DNA of 64,000 nucleotides from Balneolales bacterium ANBcel1 (GTDB taxonomy: Bacteria; Bacteroidota; Rhodothermia; Balneolales; Natronogracilivirgulaceae), in NCBI GenBank assembly GCA_029688905.1, contig JARULB010000002.1:62001-126000 (forward strand), in the 5' to 3' direction. The notes beneath the pieces are model-generated. The model saw only the letters and a list, made by a program, of their open reading frames with translations. It was not told where the DNA came from and searched no databases. This document shows positions 23,769 through 29,977 of the stretch, one piece after another. Numbering within the stretch: the stretch's first letter is position 1; each line of letters begins with the position of its first letter. Both the position numbers and the translations under genes were made by a program.

Positions 23769-25046
23769 ATGGTATTCATTGTTTTAGTACTTCTGGTTTT
23801 TGTAGGCGGGTGCACCTTTTCCTCCAGTGTGACGCCCGAGCCTCCGGGGTCGTTTCTGCTTTCCTGGCAGCAGGATCCGGCGACGACCATGACCATCGAC
23901 TGGCATCCCGAAGCGGATGCCCACAGCTGGCTGGAATATCGCAAGCGGGGGGAGGATGAGTGGATCTTCGCGGAGGGCGCGTCCCTGACGATCCCCGGAT
24001 CACCGCGCCGGTTGATGCGTGAAGAGCTCACAGGCCTGGAACCGCAGTCCTATTATGAATTTCGATTCTCCGGCGCCGATCCGGTATACTCGTTCCGGAC
24101 CATGCCACGGCAAGCCGATCGCCCCATCCGCTTTATCGCAGGCGGAGATGTCATGCACCACCGCCAGTGGATGCAGCGTACCGCGGAAGCGGCAATGCAG
24201 GTGACCGGAGAGGAGGCCGATTTTGCCGTTCTCGGCGGTGACCTGGCCTATGCCGACGGCCTGGCGCGCAAGGCGTTTCGCTGGTTCGACTATTTCGAGG
24301 TATGGTCCGAGACCATGATTACCCCCACCGGAAGAGTGATCCCCCACATTGCGGCGATCGGCAATCACGAAGTGGTCGAACAGTTCGTGTACCGATACCC
24401 GGCGGCGGAATACGAACGGCCGGACTTTGCCCTGCGCGAGGCGCCCTATTTCTCCCGCTTTATCCCGTTTCCAGGGGCGCAGGGGTATGGGGTGCTGGAT
24501 TTCGGTGAATATCTCAGCCTGTTTATTCTGGATTCCGGACACCTGAATTTTATCGAAGGCCGGCAGACGGAGTGGCTGGAGTACGAACTGTCCCGGCGCC
24601 CGGACACCCGGCACATCATTCCGGTCTATCATGTGCCCGCCTGGCCCTCTTTCCGTGATAAGGACTCCTTCCTGTCACGCACCGTCCGGGAGCAGTGGGT
24701 GCCGCGTTTTGAGGATCATGGCGTGCGGCTGGCCCTGGAGCACCACGACCATACCTTCAAACGGACCCATCCGATCAGAAATAATCAAATAGACGAAACC
24801 GGGATCTATTATGTCGGCGACGGGGCCTGGGGAGTCCGGCTCCGGCAGCCGCGTACCGATGAGGAGGGAAACCTGCCCTGGTACATTGCCAAAGCCGATT
24901 CGGTATTCAATTTTGCCGTGGTGGAGATCGACGGCGATGATCTGCGGGTGGAGATGTTTGACGAAGGCGCACGGCTGCTCGACCGGTTCGAGATCACCGG
25001 GGCCGGAAGAACAGAACCCGTCATACGCGCGGAGCGTGCGAAATAA
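23769..25046 (+). CDS. Purple-acid-phosphatase-like metallophosphoesterase lipoprotein
   Basis: A 425-residue exported lipoprotein (signal peptide with VLLVFVGGC, mature Cys15). An FN3-like purple acid phosphatase N-terminal domain (~30-115, ending LEPQSYYEFRFSG) precedes a calcineurin-like domain. Metal motifs: FIAGGDVMHHRQW, LGGDLAYADG, AIGNHEV, IIPVYHVPAWPSF and LALEHHDHTFKR (the GHxH-type block, here with EHHDH). The first block has D but lacks the usual DxG spacing, so the active site is slightly unusual. It probably hydrolyses phosphate esters in the periplasm or at the surface. It is convergent with the channel gene 33 bp away. Confidence 0.85.
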   Translation: MVFIVLVLLVFVGGCTFSSSVTPEPPGSFLLSWQQDPATTMTIDWHPEADAHSWLEYRKRGEDEWIFAEGASLTIPGSPRRLMREELTGLEPQSYYEFRFSGADPVYSFRTMPRQADRPIRFIAGGDVMHHRQWMQRTAEAAMQVTGEEADFAVLGGDLAYADGLARKAFRWFDYFEVWSETMITPTGRVIPHIAAIGNHEVVEQFVYRYPAAEYERPDFALREAPYFSRFIPFPGAQGYGVLDFGEYLSLFILDSGHLNFIEGRQTEWLEYELSRRPDTRHIIPVYHVPAWPSFRDKDSFLSRTVREQWVPRFEDHGVRLALEHHDHTFKRTHPIRNNQIDETGIYYVGDGAWGVRLRQPRTDEEGNLPWYIAKADSVFNFAVVEIDGDDLRVEMFDEGARLLDRFEITGAGRTEPVIRAERAK

Positions 25047-25079: not shown

Positions 25080-26249
25080 TCAGTTGCCCAGATAGCGACG
25101 GTTCAGCGCCTCCCACTCATCACTGCCGATGTACTCCAGCATCACCCGGTTGATGTCGTTGCGCCAGGGGGAATCCAGCGGAAGAGCGATGCCGTAGTAC
25201 TGCTCGTTGAACGTCCGGGGCAGCACACGTACCTTGTTGGGAAACTCGTTGGTCGCGTAATAGCGGATGATCGGAGCGTCATGGACGAACGCGTCGATGG
25301 CATCCTCGGAAACGGCGCGCAGGCCGTCGGATATGGTTTCAAACGTCTGGTAGCGGATACGGTTCTCATCCAGGTAATCAAGGGTGGCGGAATGCTGAAG
25401 GGCGCCGACACGCACATGGGGAAGATCCTGCGGACCCGATATGCGGCTGTCCAGCCGGGTGACGGTCAGACTGGAAGCGATCGATGCGGTGAAAAACGAA
25501 ACCAGAATAATGCCCGCAAACATCCAGATGAAACCGACGGTGCGGCCCGCGAACGTGACCGGCGCTTTGTCGCCGTAACCGACGGTGGTCATGGTCACCG
25601 CCGCCCACCAGAAACCGCTGCCGATACCCTCAGCCGGCGTTCCCCCGAAGTGGTCGGGATTGTGCCGTCGCTCAAACCACCAGGCCAGCACGCCCCAGAA
25701 GAGCAACAGCAGAATCAGCAGCGCGACGATCCAGAGAAACTCCGGGGAAAATATTGCCATGAAAGCCTGCCACAGTCCGGATGGAGTATAGGTGGCGGCA
25801 ATGCCCAGGCCGGTGACCAGAAAAGGGTGGGTGAAATCCAGCATCTCCTCCCGCTCGGCGGTGATGGTCAGGGCCGAGGCTGCGGCAAACAGCTCCGGGG
25901 CGTGCCGGAGGGTGTCCTCCACAATCCGCACCCCGTCAAGCAGTCCCTGGATATCACGCTCTTCCAGTTGGTAGGCAATGCCGAGCTGATCGGCGATATG
26001 CTCCCACAGGGCGATCGTCAGACCGCTGTACGAGCCGTCCGGCTCGGCGATCACAAACGGCGGGACGACCCGCACCCCAACCGTCACTTGCTCAGTCCCG
26101 GCCGAAGCGCCGCTCTCCGGGCCAATAGCGTCGATTTCCGCGGCCCATGCCCGCCCGGTTCCTCCGGCCGCCAAAGCATAAATCAGGATCGTTGTTACAA
26201 GGGTCGTTGATTTGCAACACTTTATCATAAGTAATTTGGATTCATGCAT
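25080..26249 (-). CDS. GluR0-like prokaryotic ligand-gated potassium channel
   Basis: A 389-residue protein combining a split periplasmic amino-acid-binding domain with a potassium pore. After a signal peptide (~1-36), lobe S1 has VTVGVRVVPPFVIAEPDG and SALTITAEREEMLDFTHPF, with the Thr and Arg that contact ligand carboxylate in this fold. TM1 is FLWIVALLILLLLFWGVLAW. The pore loop AAVTMTTVGYGDKAPVT carries an intact TVGYGD selectivity filter. TM2 contains SFFTASIASSLT, resembling the glutamate-receptor SYTANLAAF gate. Lobe S2 (VRVGALQHSATLDYL ... DAFVHDAPIIRYYA) completes the clamshell. This is the architecture of Synechocystis GluR0: ligand binding outside opens a K+ channel. ATG 26249 is used; ATG 26228 is also possible. 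Ligand unknown. Confidence 0.9.
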   Translation of the reverse strand: MHESKLLMIKCCKSTTLVTTILIYALAAGGTGRAWAAEIDAIGPESGASAGTEQVTVGVRVVPPFVIAEPDGSYSGLTIALWEHIADQLGIAYQLEERDIQGLLDGVRIVEDTLRHAPELFAAASALTITAEREEMLDFTHPFLVTGLGIAATYTPSGLWQAFMAIFSPEFLWIVALLILLLLFWGVLAWWFERRHNPDHFGGTPAEGIGSGFWWAAVTMTTVGYGDKAPVTFAGRTVGFIWMFAGIILVSFFTASIASSLTVTRLDSRISGPQDLPHVRVGALQHSATLDYLDENRIRYQTFETISDGLRAVSEDAIDAFVHDAPIIRYYATNEFPNKVRVLPRTFNEQYYGIALPLDSPWRNDINRVMLEYIGSDEWEALNRRYLGN

Positions 26250-26479
26250 ATATGCTTGAAGAACATTTCCGGTTGTAACGCAATTCTCGTCTGTCGCACT
26301 CTATGTGTAAAAGAAACATAAAATACTGCGTGAAATTCACTTGGCTAGTGATTAAATTATTTTAATGATGCGCCGATAAGTGAAGTCGGCGGATACGCTC
26401 CACAAGGAGCGAGCTGCACTGGATGTCTGCATAAAGTGCCGGTTTACTCTTGGCAAACCGGTTCATACAAAAATGCTGT

Positions 26480-29400
26480 ATGAGGGTTACATTGATCAAG
26501 GCTGTTTCAATTGCCGGGTTCGTTCTGATTGCGGGGACCTGTACTGTCGATGTTGCGGCACAGCCGGATCCGATTCCGATGGAATTCAAACATCTGGGCA
26601 GGCAGGACGGCCTTTCGCAGAGTGCCGTAAATGCATTTCTCCAGGATCACCAGGGCTACATGTGGATTGGCACATGGAATGGCCTGAACCGCTACAACGG
26701 TGAGGAGATTGATATTTTTCGACGCGATCCACTCGACTCCACATCCATAGGCGGAAACAATATTTCCGTTATTTACGAAGACAGCGAACAGACGCTCTGG
26801 ATTGGAACAGCGGGCGGCGGCATCAGCCGCTTTGACCGTAACCTGGAAACATTCACCCGCTTTCAGACCGATTATGTGGATCACGCCTCCAGTATCAGCG
26901 ATAATACCGTCACCTCCATTCTGGAAGACCGCAACGGTGAAATATGGATCGGAACAACCGCCGGGCTCAACGTGTTTGATCCGGAAACGGAGGAGTTTAT
27001 CCATTTTTTTGAAACCGAAGAGTGGGAGGGAAGTCCCTCAAGCAGCCATATTACCGCCTTGATGGATGATCGCGATGGCTTCTTGTGGGTCGGCACGGTG
27101 GATGGCCTCAACTATTGGGATCACATAAACGGGGTGTTCCGACATTTCAAGCACGATCCGCATGATCCGAACAGTCTCAGCCACAATCATGTAACCGTGC
27201 TCTATGAAGATTGCTTCGGGAAATTCTGGGTTGGAACCGAAGGCGGCGGACTCAATCGTTTTTATCCGGAGGAAGGCCGTTTTGAGCATTACAAGGCGGA
27301 TGAGCAGGTTGCCGGCAGCATCAGCGGAAATCACATAACCGCCATTTTCAGGGATTCCGCCGGCAGACTGTGGACAGGTACCAGTGGCAGCGGACTGAAC
27401 ATGCTGCTTCCAGGGACACAGAACTTTCAGACACTGACCGCCGACAGCGACAACCCCGCAAGTCTCACCAGTAATGTCATCTATGCGGTCTTTGAGAGCG
27501 ATAACCGACTTTTGTGGGTCGGAACCGAAACCGGAGGCGTCAATCTGCTTGAGCTGAAATCTTCCGGGTTCGAGCACTACATGCGCCGCCCCTATATGGA
27601 TAATACCCTCAGCGACAATTCTGTGACCTCTTTCCTGGAGGATCGCGATGGCAGGTTCTTTGTCGGTACCGGCCTGGGAATCAACGTATTTGATCGTCAG
27701 GCCCGGCGGTTTGGGTCCGAACACTATCATGAACGCGGAGAAAAGGATCCATCGGAAGGCGATGCCGTACTGGCGCTGATGGAGGACAGCCGCGGCAATA
27801 AATGGGCGGGCTACTACAACGGCGGAGTGATTCGCCTTGATGCCGAAACCGGCCGGTTCACACGCTATCGGCATGACCCCGACGACCCGCATACCCCGGC
27901 AAGCGACCATGTATTCAGCATTATGGAGCATAGCAGCGGAGACATTTATATCGGCACCAATGGCGGCGGAGTCAACCGCTATGATGCCGAAAACGACCGC
28001 TTCGTACGTCTCAGGGAGTTTTCCAACGGCAATGACGCCACCAGAGCCCTGCTTGAAGACTCCCGCGGGACGTTCTGGGTGGGCTCGTACGGAGGCGGAC
28101 TGCGTGCCATCGATCCGCATCGCGAGGAAATCCTGAAGTACTACTATTATGGCGACCAGGGACTCACCAGTCATGTCGTTATAGTGCTTCACGAAGACCG
28201 CCGGGACAACCTCTGGGTCGGTACGGTGGGAGGCGGGCTTCTGCTTTTGGACCGCGACTCCGGGTACATGCATTCCTATTCGTTTGCCGACGGACTCCCC
28301 TCGCTTGACATTTTCGGAATCCTGGATGACGACAGGGGGAATATCTGGCTGAGCACCGGTCAGGGGATCGTTCGATTTGACCCGGACCGGGAAGTATTCA
28401 CCTCATTCAGCATGGTGCACGGCCTGCAGGGACTCGAGTTTAATCGTGGCGCCTCCTACCGCGACAGTGACGGCTATCTCTATTTCGGAGGCACAAACGG
28501 CTTCAATCGGTTTCATCCGGACAGCCTGAGTATTGACGACCGGATCGCACCGGTGCGGTTTTCCGACTTTCGGATCAACAATCAGTCCGTTGCCCCAGGG
28601 CCCGGATCGGTTCTGGACAGGCACATCAGCCAGACGGATGCCATCGAGCTCCCTCATAACCGTGCCATCCTGGCATTCGACTTTGCAGCACTGGACTTCA
28701 ACCTCAATTCACCTAACGAGTATGCCTACAAGCTGGAAGGGTTTGATACCGACTGGCACTATGTCGGTGGAAACCGGACGGCAACCTATACCAACCTGGG
28801 TCCGGGTAATTACCGCCTCAAAGTGCGCACGGCAAATCTGGCCGGCGTCTGGGGGGATCAGGTCGCAACCATGGACCTGAAGATCGTCCCGCCATTCTGG
28901 CAAAGCCCCTGGTTCTACGTCATGGTTTTCCTGCTGGTGGCAGGGGTCATCGGGCTGGGCTACCAGCAGAGAATGCAATCCGTCACCCGCATCAACCGCC
29001 GCCTTGAAAAAGAGGTGGCGATGCGGACGTCTGACCTCAGTCAGAGTAACAGGGAACTTAAGGAAGCGCTTGAAGAACTTGGTGAAACCAGGAGCCAACT
29101 GGTCGAGAAGGCGCACAAGGCGGGTATGGCGGATCTGGCAACCGATGTTCTGCACGATCTGGGCAATATTCTGAATACCATGAACACCTCGGTGAGCATG
29201 ACCGGAGAGACGCTCATGAATTCGCAGCTCCATAATTTCAAAAAGGCGAATAAACTGCTGAAGGATAACATCAACAACCTGGAACATTTCATCCTGGAGG
29301 ACGAGAAAGGCCGGCTGCTGATGGAATACTATCTGGGTCTGGAAAAGTCATTTGAGACGGAAGTGGAACAGCTTGTCGAATACAATGCGCGGCTGGTGGA

Positions 29401-29977
29401 AAAAGTCAGGCTGATCAACGATGTGGTCTACGCCCAGCAACAGTTCGCCAGAGTTGGGAGAGTCAAAGAAAAGTTGTCGCTGATCATTTTTGTGGAAGAC
29501 ACCCTCAAGCTGCAGGCCGGGAATCTGGAAAAGGACGGAGTAAGGGTGGAGACCCGCTTTGATCAGGTTGACAAAATCGAAGTGGAGCGTTCCAAACTGG
29601 TGCACGTGCTGGTCAACCTCATTCAGAACGCCGCCGAAGCGATGCAGCACCTTCCTCCGGATGAGAAACTCATAACCGTTTCCCTCCGGCAGGATGAGCA
29701 GCATATCTATCTGGAAGTATCGGATCGTGGAATCGGGGTGGAGAAAGAGAACCTGACAAGAGTCTTCTCTCACGGGTATACCACCAAAAAGTCCGGGTAC
29801 GGTTTTGGATTGCATAGCGCCTCAAATTATATGAAGGAGCTGGGAGGGGAGATTTGTGTGAAGAGCGGGGGCCATAACCGCGGATCCACGTTTTCCATGG
29901 TGTTCCCGCGACCGGAAAACCGACAAGTTTCCGGCGACTCGCCGGGTGCGCGGGATCGCCCGGATAAGCCGCATTAG
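26480..29977 (+). CDS. Two-component-propeller sensor histidine kinase without output domain
   Basis: A protein of about 1165 residues. After the signal sequence come about 14 Reg_prop blades (for example WIGTWNGLNRYNG, WVGTEGGGLNRFYPE, YIGTNGGGVNRYDAE), enough for two seven-bladed periplasmic propellers. A Y_Y_Y domain (YKLEGFDTDWHYVG) follows, with one TM helix (WFYVMVFLLVAGVIGLGY), a coiled coil, and a kinase module whose phospho-acceptor is in VLHDLGNILNTMN, the HxxGN type rather than HisKA HExRTP. The ATPase has LVNLIQNAAEAM, SDRGIGV and GYGFGLHSASNYM. There is no receiver or AraC domain, unlike the hybrid propeller regulators of Bacteroides, so it needs a separate response regulator, not present nearby. 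ATG 26480 is used; a TTG at 26450 is in frame. Confidence 0.88.
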   Translation: MRVTLIKAVSIAGFVLIAGTCTVDVAAQPDPIPMEFKHLGRQDGLSQSAVNAFLQDHQGYMWIGTWNGLNRYNGEEIDIFRRDPLDSTSIGGNNISVIYEDSEQTLWIGTAGGGISRFDRNLETFTRFQTDYVDHASSISDNTVTSILEDRNGEIWIGTTAGLNVFDPETEEFIHFFETEEWEGSPSSSHITALMDDRDGFLWVGTVDGLNYWDHINGVFRHFKHDPHDPNSLSHNHVTVLYEDCFGKFWVGTEGGGLNRFYPEEGRFEHYKADEQVAGSISGNHITAIFRDSAGRLWTGTSGSGLNMLLPGTQNFQTLTADSDNPASLTSNVIYAVFESDNRLLWVGTETGGVNLLELKSSGFEHYMRRPYMDNTLSDNSVTSFLEDRDGRFFVGTGLGINVFDRQARRFGSEHYHERGEKDPSEGDAVLALMEDSRGNKWAGYYNGGVIRLDAETGRFTRYRHDPDDPHTPASDHVFSIMEHSSGDIYIGTNGGGVNRYDAENDRFVRLREFSNGNDATRALLEDSRGTFWVGSYGGGLRAIDPHREEILKYYYYGDQGLTSHVVIVLHEDRRDNLWVGTVGGGLLLLDRDSGYMHSYSFADGLPSLDIFGILDDDRGNIWLSTGQGIVRFDPDREVFTSFSMVHGLQGLEFNRGASYRDSDGYLYFGGTNGFNRFHPDSLSIDDRIAPVRFSDFRINNQSVAPGPGSVLDRHISQTDAIELPHNRAILAFDFAALDFNLNSPNEYAYKLEGFDTDWHYVGGNRTATYTNLGPGNYRLKVRTANLAGVWGDQVATMDLKIVPPFWQSPWFYVMVFLLVAGVIGLGYQQRMQSVTRINRRLEKEVAMRTSDLSQSNRELKEALEELGETRSQLVEKAHKAGMADLATDVLHDLGNILNTMNTSVSMTGETLMNSQLHNFKKANKLLKDNINNLEHFILEDEKGRLLMEYYLGLEKSFETEVEQLVEYNARLVEKVRLINDVVYAQQQFARVGRVKEKLSLIIFVEDTLKLQAGNLEKDGVRVETRFDQVDKIEVERSKLVHVLVNLIQNAAEAMQHLPPDEKLITVSLRQDEQHIYLEVSDRGIGVEKENLTRVFSHGYTTKKSGYGFGLHSASNYMKELGGEICVKSGGHNRGSTFSMVFPRPENRQVSGDSPGARDRPDKPH

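Follow-up and report, generated by a model that had tools for sequence, protein, structure and literature searches.

A predicted GluR0-type, K+-selective receptor channel subunit with an altered ligand site in Balneolales

One gene on the minus strand of the window (the whole stretch of 64,000 nucleotides analysed, from Balneolales bacterium ANBcel1) raises two questions: whether it encodes a GluR0-like receptor channel, as an initial annotation proposed, and which ligand such a channel would sense. The open reading frame at 25080-26249 is intact, with 389 residues in one unbroken frame. The gene, its parts and its neighbours are as follows.

25080..26249, minus strand: receptor channel gene; complete, 389 amino acids plus stop, ATG start
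26142..26249, minus strand: N-terminus, residues 1-36; probable signal peptide (model helix 13-28 and the N-termini of relatives)
25785..26096, minus strand: S1, first half of the clamshell, residues 52-155 (SBP_bac_3, Lig_chan-Glu_bd; model residues 50-388 aligned to 1ii5)
25881..25934, minus strand: lengthened turn in S1, residues 106-123, 18 residues (comparison of homologues)
25851..25853, minus strand: Arg133, equivalent to GluA2 Arg485, which contacts the ligand alpha-carboxylate (99/99 homologues; PMC2950845 and PMC12226733)
25662..25745, minus strand: TM1 (M1), residues 169-196 (model and hydropathy)
25569..25589, minus strand: selectivity filter TTVGYGD, residues 221-227, directly after the pore helix at 205-219 (sequence, model, Ion_trans_2)
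25452..25553, minus strand: TM2 (M3 equivalent), residues 233-266 (model and hydropathy)
25467..25499, minus strand: gate-like segment SFFTASIASSL, residues 251-261 (alignment to GluN2B ASYTANLAAFM)
25083..25451, minus strand: S2, second half of the clamshell, residues 267-389, to the protein end without M4 (Pfam, model)
25386..25388, minus strand: Ala288, at the position of GluA2 Thr655 (side-chain contact), in the clade signature xSA ... HD (19/19, 29/29)
25278..25280, minus strand: Asp324, equivalent to GluA2 residue 705, which contacts the ligand alpha-amino group (99/99 homologues)
23769..25046, plus strand: purple-acid-phosphatase-like metallophosphatase, convergent neighbour (Pfam)
26450..29977, plus strand: two-component-propeller histidine kinase, divergent neighbour (Pfam)

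Pfam matches above the curated cut-offs were obtained to Lig_chan (4.8e-15, residues 172-276), Ion_trans_2 (3.4e-14, residues 179-262), SBP_bac_3 (1.5e-12, residues 56-388, split by the pore) and Lig_chan-Glu_bd (3e-8). The Ion_trans_2 match, with TTVGYGD at residues 221-227, bears out the TVGYGD K+ pore of the initial annotation. Its amino-acid-type clamshell divided into S1 and S2 is likewise recovered, in the split SBP_bac_3 match and in the structural likeness of the LBD to glutamate-bound GluR0 (Z 26.5). The domain order is S1-TM1-pore-TM2-S2, with neither M4 nor an N-terminal domain; S1 and S2 flank two TM helices and a P-loop, the arrangement that defines Group 1 prokaryotic iGluRs. ABC-transporter binding proteins are pore-less, and stand alone or are permease-linked, whereas a pore is present here. 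Among PDB sequences the best match was the Nostoc punctiforme receptor LBD (NpGluR0, 2pyy; 2.4e-25), followed by GluN2B chains, with which the alignment runs through S1, pore and S2. The source genome of 3.32 Mb holds one full-length copy, and a search of that genome found no full-receptor paralogue; C12 gave a pore-only, K+-channel-like match and C6 a marginal one.

For residue-level comparison, 119 homologues were gathered with patterns or a regular expression that favoured the filter; 20 with a repeated C-terminal core were dropped, leaving 99 non-redundant sequences. The turn in S1 at residues 106-123 is 10 residues long in 91 of these 99 and 18 in the window protein, and measures 15, 16, 16, 18, 20, 20, 30 and 89 residues in eight members of the window family (window protein included); the 89-residue turn is an acidic, proline-rich run or repeat (L011:832-2328). 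A local frameshift at residues 105-120, where the odd stretch DGVRIVEDTLRHAPELFAAAS lies, was considered and rejected, because the other frames hold stops and the nearest relatives share a longer turn.

An AlphaFold2 monomer model, built from an 18-row alignment of orthologues (mean pLDDT 79.1, pTM 0.62), comprises an N-terminal helix (13-28), a two-lobed LBD, TM1 (169-196), a pore helix (205-219) and TM2 (233-266). The pLDDT is mostly 85-96 in the LBD and lower in the pore region, with block means of about 57-83. The initial annotation had held that loss of the pore helices in a structural model would count against a channel; both TM helices and the pore helix are retained. The top Foldseek matches were AMPA-receptor LBD-TMD chains (about 365-390 columns, E about 1e-21, TM about 0.5-0.6). 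In VIA-align, the GluR0 LBD with L-glutamate (1ii5) came first (Z 26.5, rmsd 2.2 A, 218 aligned), an engineered glutamine-binding protein tied with it at Z 26.5, and 2pyy was close (Z 26.1, 33% identity). Because of this tie, a receptor and a glutamine-binding protein cannot be told apart by the LBD fold alone; the distinction comes from the pore and from the phylogeny.

The filter TTVGYGD is kept in 99/99 homologues, partly by construction, as the searches favoured it. In TM2, phmmer aligns GluN2B ASYTANLAAFM with SFFTASIASSL (251-261), and the resemblance to the animal SYTANLAAF gate remarked on earlier therefore stands; Thr254 occurs in 98 and Ala255 in 95 of the 99 homologues. The segment departs from SYTANLAAF in having Ser259 at the presumed 'lurcher' Ala position. 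Lys and Arg residues on the predicted cytoplasmic loops of the window protein number four, against two outside, and the inside exceeds the outside in 96/99 homologues, with equality in three. This inside-positive charge fits an inverted orientation, given the GluR0 topology established by PhoA fusions (PMC13099474). At the N-terminus of the window protein no 19-residue Kyte-Doolittle window above 1.6 was found; most relatives have hydrophobic N-termini, and these, with model helix 13-28, indicate a probable signal peptide at residues 1-36.

A phylogeny with GluR0 had been suggested as a check, a grouping with plain binding proteins being the adverse outcome. In a tree of pore-free LBDs, one branch with 97% SH-aLRT separates 50 receptor LBDs, including GluR0, NpGluR0 and the window protein, from a small contrast set of 13 channel-less domains. 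The latter are AncQR (E. coli GlnH itself is absent), two GlnPQ domains and ten rows from relatives' genomes, mostly binding domains within frames of 476-557 residues; five more candidates were set aside for an overlong matched span. The same split, at 97%, appeared in a previous tree of 105 rows that had three outgroup domains. Both trees are quick IQ-TREE searches, and GluN2B is a very long branch in the 105-row tree, where its placement carries no meaning. As judged from these aligned domains, the trees show that the LBD descends with GluR0 and NpGluR0, apart from channel-less binding domains.

Pfam, PDB sequence, predicted structure and the pore-free LBD tree thus agree on a GluR0-like receptor channel. 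The original observation is confirmed, and its reading as a GluR0-type channel is supported. The gene product is very probably one subunit of a GluR0-type channel that is ligand-gated and K+-selective and has an inverted pore. The mechanism envisaged is modelled on accounts of GluR0 (PMC13099474) and of a KcvATCV-1/GluA1 chimera (PMC6385376). The protein would be exported, and four subunits would assemble; an amino acid would shut the periplasmic clamshell, and this closure would pull on TM2 at the gate segment and open the pore, through which, inverted and KcsA-like, K+ would run down its gradient.

The ligand site combines invariant and divergent positions. Arg133 (GluA2 485) and Asp324 (705) are present in 99/99 homologues, and Thr128 (GluA2 480) is replaced by Ser in five homologues, the other 94 having Thr. 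These three positions contact the backbone of amino-acid ligands (PMC12226733, PMC2950845), and the Asp is kept across Group 1 and Group 2 (PMC2950845). Position 655 is Ala in 19/19 orthologues of the window's order and in 29/29 rows of a supported wider clade that also has His before the Asp; GluR0 and NpGluR0 have Thr at 655, and Phe-Asp instead of His-Asp. Over the 99 homologues, position 655 is Ala in 47, Thr in 37, Ser in 10 and another residue in five, with at least six Thr/Ser-Ala changes along the tree. Because the clade has Ala where Thr contacts the glutamate side chain, the predicted ligand is an alpha-amino acid that need not be glutamate.

In animal LBDs, the code for glutamate is Gly/Ser/Thr at 653, Thr at 655 and Tyr at 732 (PMC12226733). 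The window protein has His286, Ala288 and Tyr352, two of the three being unmatched in the NpGluR0 register; against eukaryotic receptors this register may be off by one residue, since the GluN2B alignment places Thr289 at 655. By the animal code, Ala288 would weaken glutamate specificity, yet Tyr352 (732) is glutamate-like, and the answer from sequence is mixed. It is possible, if somewhat doubtful, that L-glutamate is the natural agonist here, as it is of GluR0, with Ala288 tolerated and Tyr352, Arg60 and His323 binding the side-chain carboxylate. The nearest solved LBD, NpGluR0, was crystallized with L-glutamate (title of 2pyy), the glutamate-type Tyr352 is kept in 16/19 orthologues of the order, and position 60 is Arg or Lys in 93/99 homologues. 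Against this stands the replacement, throughout the clade, of the Thr of GluR0 and NpGluR0 by Ala. A hydrophobic residue at 655, with Ser653 and Phe732, goes with glycine or D-serine in the animal code (PMC12226733), but those two companions are absent here. GlnH also has a His-Asp pair, and its turn equivalent to 655 carries a small residue. Glutamine as ligand is nonetheless unsupported, as the other amide-binding residues of GlnH are absent from the window protein.

It is improbable that the protein forms a K+ leak that is constitutive or tension-sensitive rather than ligand-gated, with the LBD as an assembly scaffold. Such a leak would be consistent with the KcsA-like tension response discussed for GluR0, with the requirement for GluR0 LBD dimer contacts in K+ uptake in E. 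coli (both PMC13099474) and with the position of the gene beside MscS genes in other lineages; however, both main ligand contacts are invariant (99/99), and a mere scaffold needs no invariant ligand contacts. It is scarcely credible that a channel has been read into what is only a periplasmic binding protein or an ABC-type sensor: the LBD fold ties with glutamine-binding protein and the best NCBIfam match is GlnH (63.7 bits, far below the cut-off of 303), but a full TM1-pore-TM2 with K+ filter lies inside the fold and is kept in homologues, the LBD tree sets the protein apart from channel-less domains, and at E 1e-10 its SBP_bac_3 match is the only full one in the genome.

A matching gene is present in 20 of the 59 nearest genomes, so the reading frame is no chance product; the threshold is reached in 21, of which one has a pore-only match, and of the copies in G013 and G019 one is cut by a contig end and one is broken. 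The 17 aligned copies are 56-71% identical to the window protein. Relatives were found in 21/198 genomes drawn from the phylum and in 32/195 genomes of the distant order to which L105 (a Thiocapsa marina record) belongs; two of the 32 matches are incomplete, and one of these contains a stop. A contig scan gave at least 589 pattern-matched stretches, at least 553 of which encode some relative; the best 80 span nearly the full receptor, and their record names cover at least 15 phyla, with Balneolota, Gemmatimonadota, Pseudomonadota, Planctomycetota, Verrucomicrobiota, Nitrospirota and others in the titles. The view that these channels are rare in described bacteria therefore finds no support in the genomes sampled.

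The closest named records are Balneolales/Balneolaceae MAGs, and 'CSSed' bin names, which we take to denote soda-lake sediment, are common among near records. Receptors from MAGs named as Gemmatimonadota or Delongbacteria (L036, L039, L041, L048, L049, L052) nest inside the Balneolales receptor clade; this could reflect either transfer among co-resident bacteria or mis-binned contigs. A literature search, with most subscription journals outside it, found no paper joining Balneola and ionotropic glutamate receptors.

The channel gene stands alone between the metallophosphatase and the histidine kinase. The metallophosphatase adjoins it also in four close relatives (L030, L031, L032, L037) and is common to these only; no conserved operon partner was found within the window's clade. 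Farther out lie genes for a CotH-domain protein, a UDP-GlcNAc epimerase, a GH3 enzyme and a TonB receptor, and the gene run at 36448-64000 of the window opens with a DUF5060 protein, a GH3 enzyme and a TonB receptor. The source genome has just two SBP_bac_3 matches at E 1e-10, one being the receptor and the other a partial match within a frame of 525 residues; it thus showed no ordinary amino-acid binding protein of family 3.

By analogy, the most likely role of the channel would be to adjust K+, turgor and membrane potential quickly as extracellular amino acids or ions change. Synechocystis GluR0 has a K+ uptake and KCl-upshock phenotype (PMC13099474). Within the window's clade no conserved neighbour gene backs an osmotic role, and no MscS gene was found in the loci of its 29 rows. 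Outside the clade, 9/80 loci (the best 80 of at least 553 relatives) have an MscS gene no more than about 5 kb away, where about 1.2 would be expected from 273 PF00924 matches in 187.5 Mb (1.456 per Mb) in the genomes of 44 of the 80 loci, a hand-picked set that includes all nine positive loci. Three weak matches (L066, L068, L073) were left uncounted; Pfam confirmed nine MscS proteins in eight of the nine loci, L063 resting on a home-made profile. Eight of 28 fresh loci from the order of L105's genome also have MscS (about 0.5 expected), but a Poisson comparison overstates this excess because the eight represent about four lineages, one of them L105's own. These 28 loci derive from the 32 matching genomes, with the L061 and L105 genomes excluded as already counted and two short matches omitted. 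A further 18 loci (15 from other families of the phylum, three from Balneolales) gave one strong and one weak MscS match, no clear excess.

Sixteen channel-MscS pairs were measured, the fragmentary L192 pair being left out; 13 are on the same strand, and eight of those are overlapping or separated by no more than 160 bases. The MscS proteins are mostly 25-55% alike across lineages and are encoded on either side of the channel gene. Loci with MscS are L102, L105, L109, L076, L191, L194, L196, L201, L061, L063, L065, L088, L095, L186, L190, L192 and L193. This adjacency is a lead on this kind of channel, not on the window gene. We would suggest only tentatively that GluR0-type receptors are part of osmotic or turgor modules with MscS genes, which in several lineages are of mutually unrelated kinds and probably share one transcript with the channel gene, that their ligand sites have switched repeatedly, and that the Balneolales clade senses an amino acid other than glutamate.

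Tandem receptor genes occur in 3 of the 28 loci taken from one order (L203:4016-6443, L204:5983-8323, L205:5986-8427); one subunit has TTVGYGDK and the other VSGGFEEH or ISGGFEEH at the same place. Given these differing filters, K+-type and non-K+-type bacterial iGluR subunits may form a heteromer.

The gene adds a predicted prokaryotic K+-selective iGluR in Balneolota and their neighbours, where the literature search found none described. Comparison across the family makes two long-standing questions testable. One is which ligands bacterial iGluRs sense, as a clade with an Ala/His-Asp pocket stands beside clades with Thr/Tyr-Asp. The other is the purpose of such channels, for which the recurrent MscS neighbours, like the 2026 Synechocystis work, point to osmotic and ionic stress; if MscS and receptor do form one module, the amino-acid-gated K+ channel would work jointly with a tension-gated one.

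Among known systems, GlnH shares the clamshell fold (native and engineered glutamine-binding chains gave Z 24.8-26.5) but, unlike the window protein, has no pore. AMPA and NMDA receptors gave full-length Foldseek matches to their LBD-TMD chains, and the gate segment aligns with SYTANLAAF; in contrast to them, the window protein has a K+ filter, lacks NTD, M4 and CTD, and is about 20% identical. GluR0 of Synechocystis PCC 6803 (Slr1257; 1ii5/1iit) has the same S1-TM1-P-TM2-S2 order, K+ filter and Arg and Asp contacts, and likewise lacks an N-terminal domain and M4. Its LBD has 21% structure-aligned identity to the window protein, with Thr rather than Ala at 655 and a shorter S1 turn. NpGluR0 (2pyy), the nearest solved sequence, has the pocket GST ... 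FD where the window protein has HSA ... HD. Twelve proteins carrying a K+ filter make up the 'Group 1' prokaryotic iGluRs (Ger et al., 2010; PMC2950845). The window protein fits the Group 1 definition in topology and filter, GluR0 fragments being the only ones of the listed accessions aligned; the Group 1 members belong to another phylum, whereas its nearest-relative records are named Balneolota. The predicted channel is thus of a kind already known, and it belongs to a clade in which the ligand site, as read from the alignments, is altered to Ala at 655 with His-Asp.
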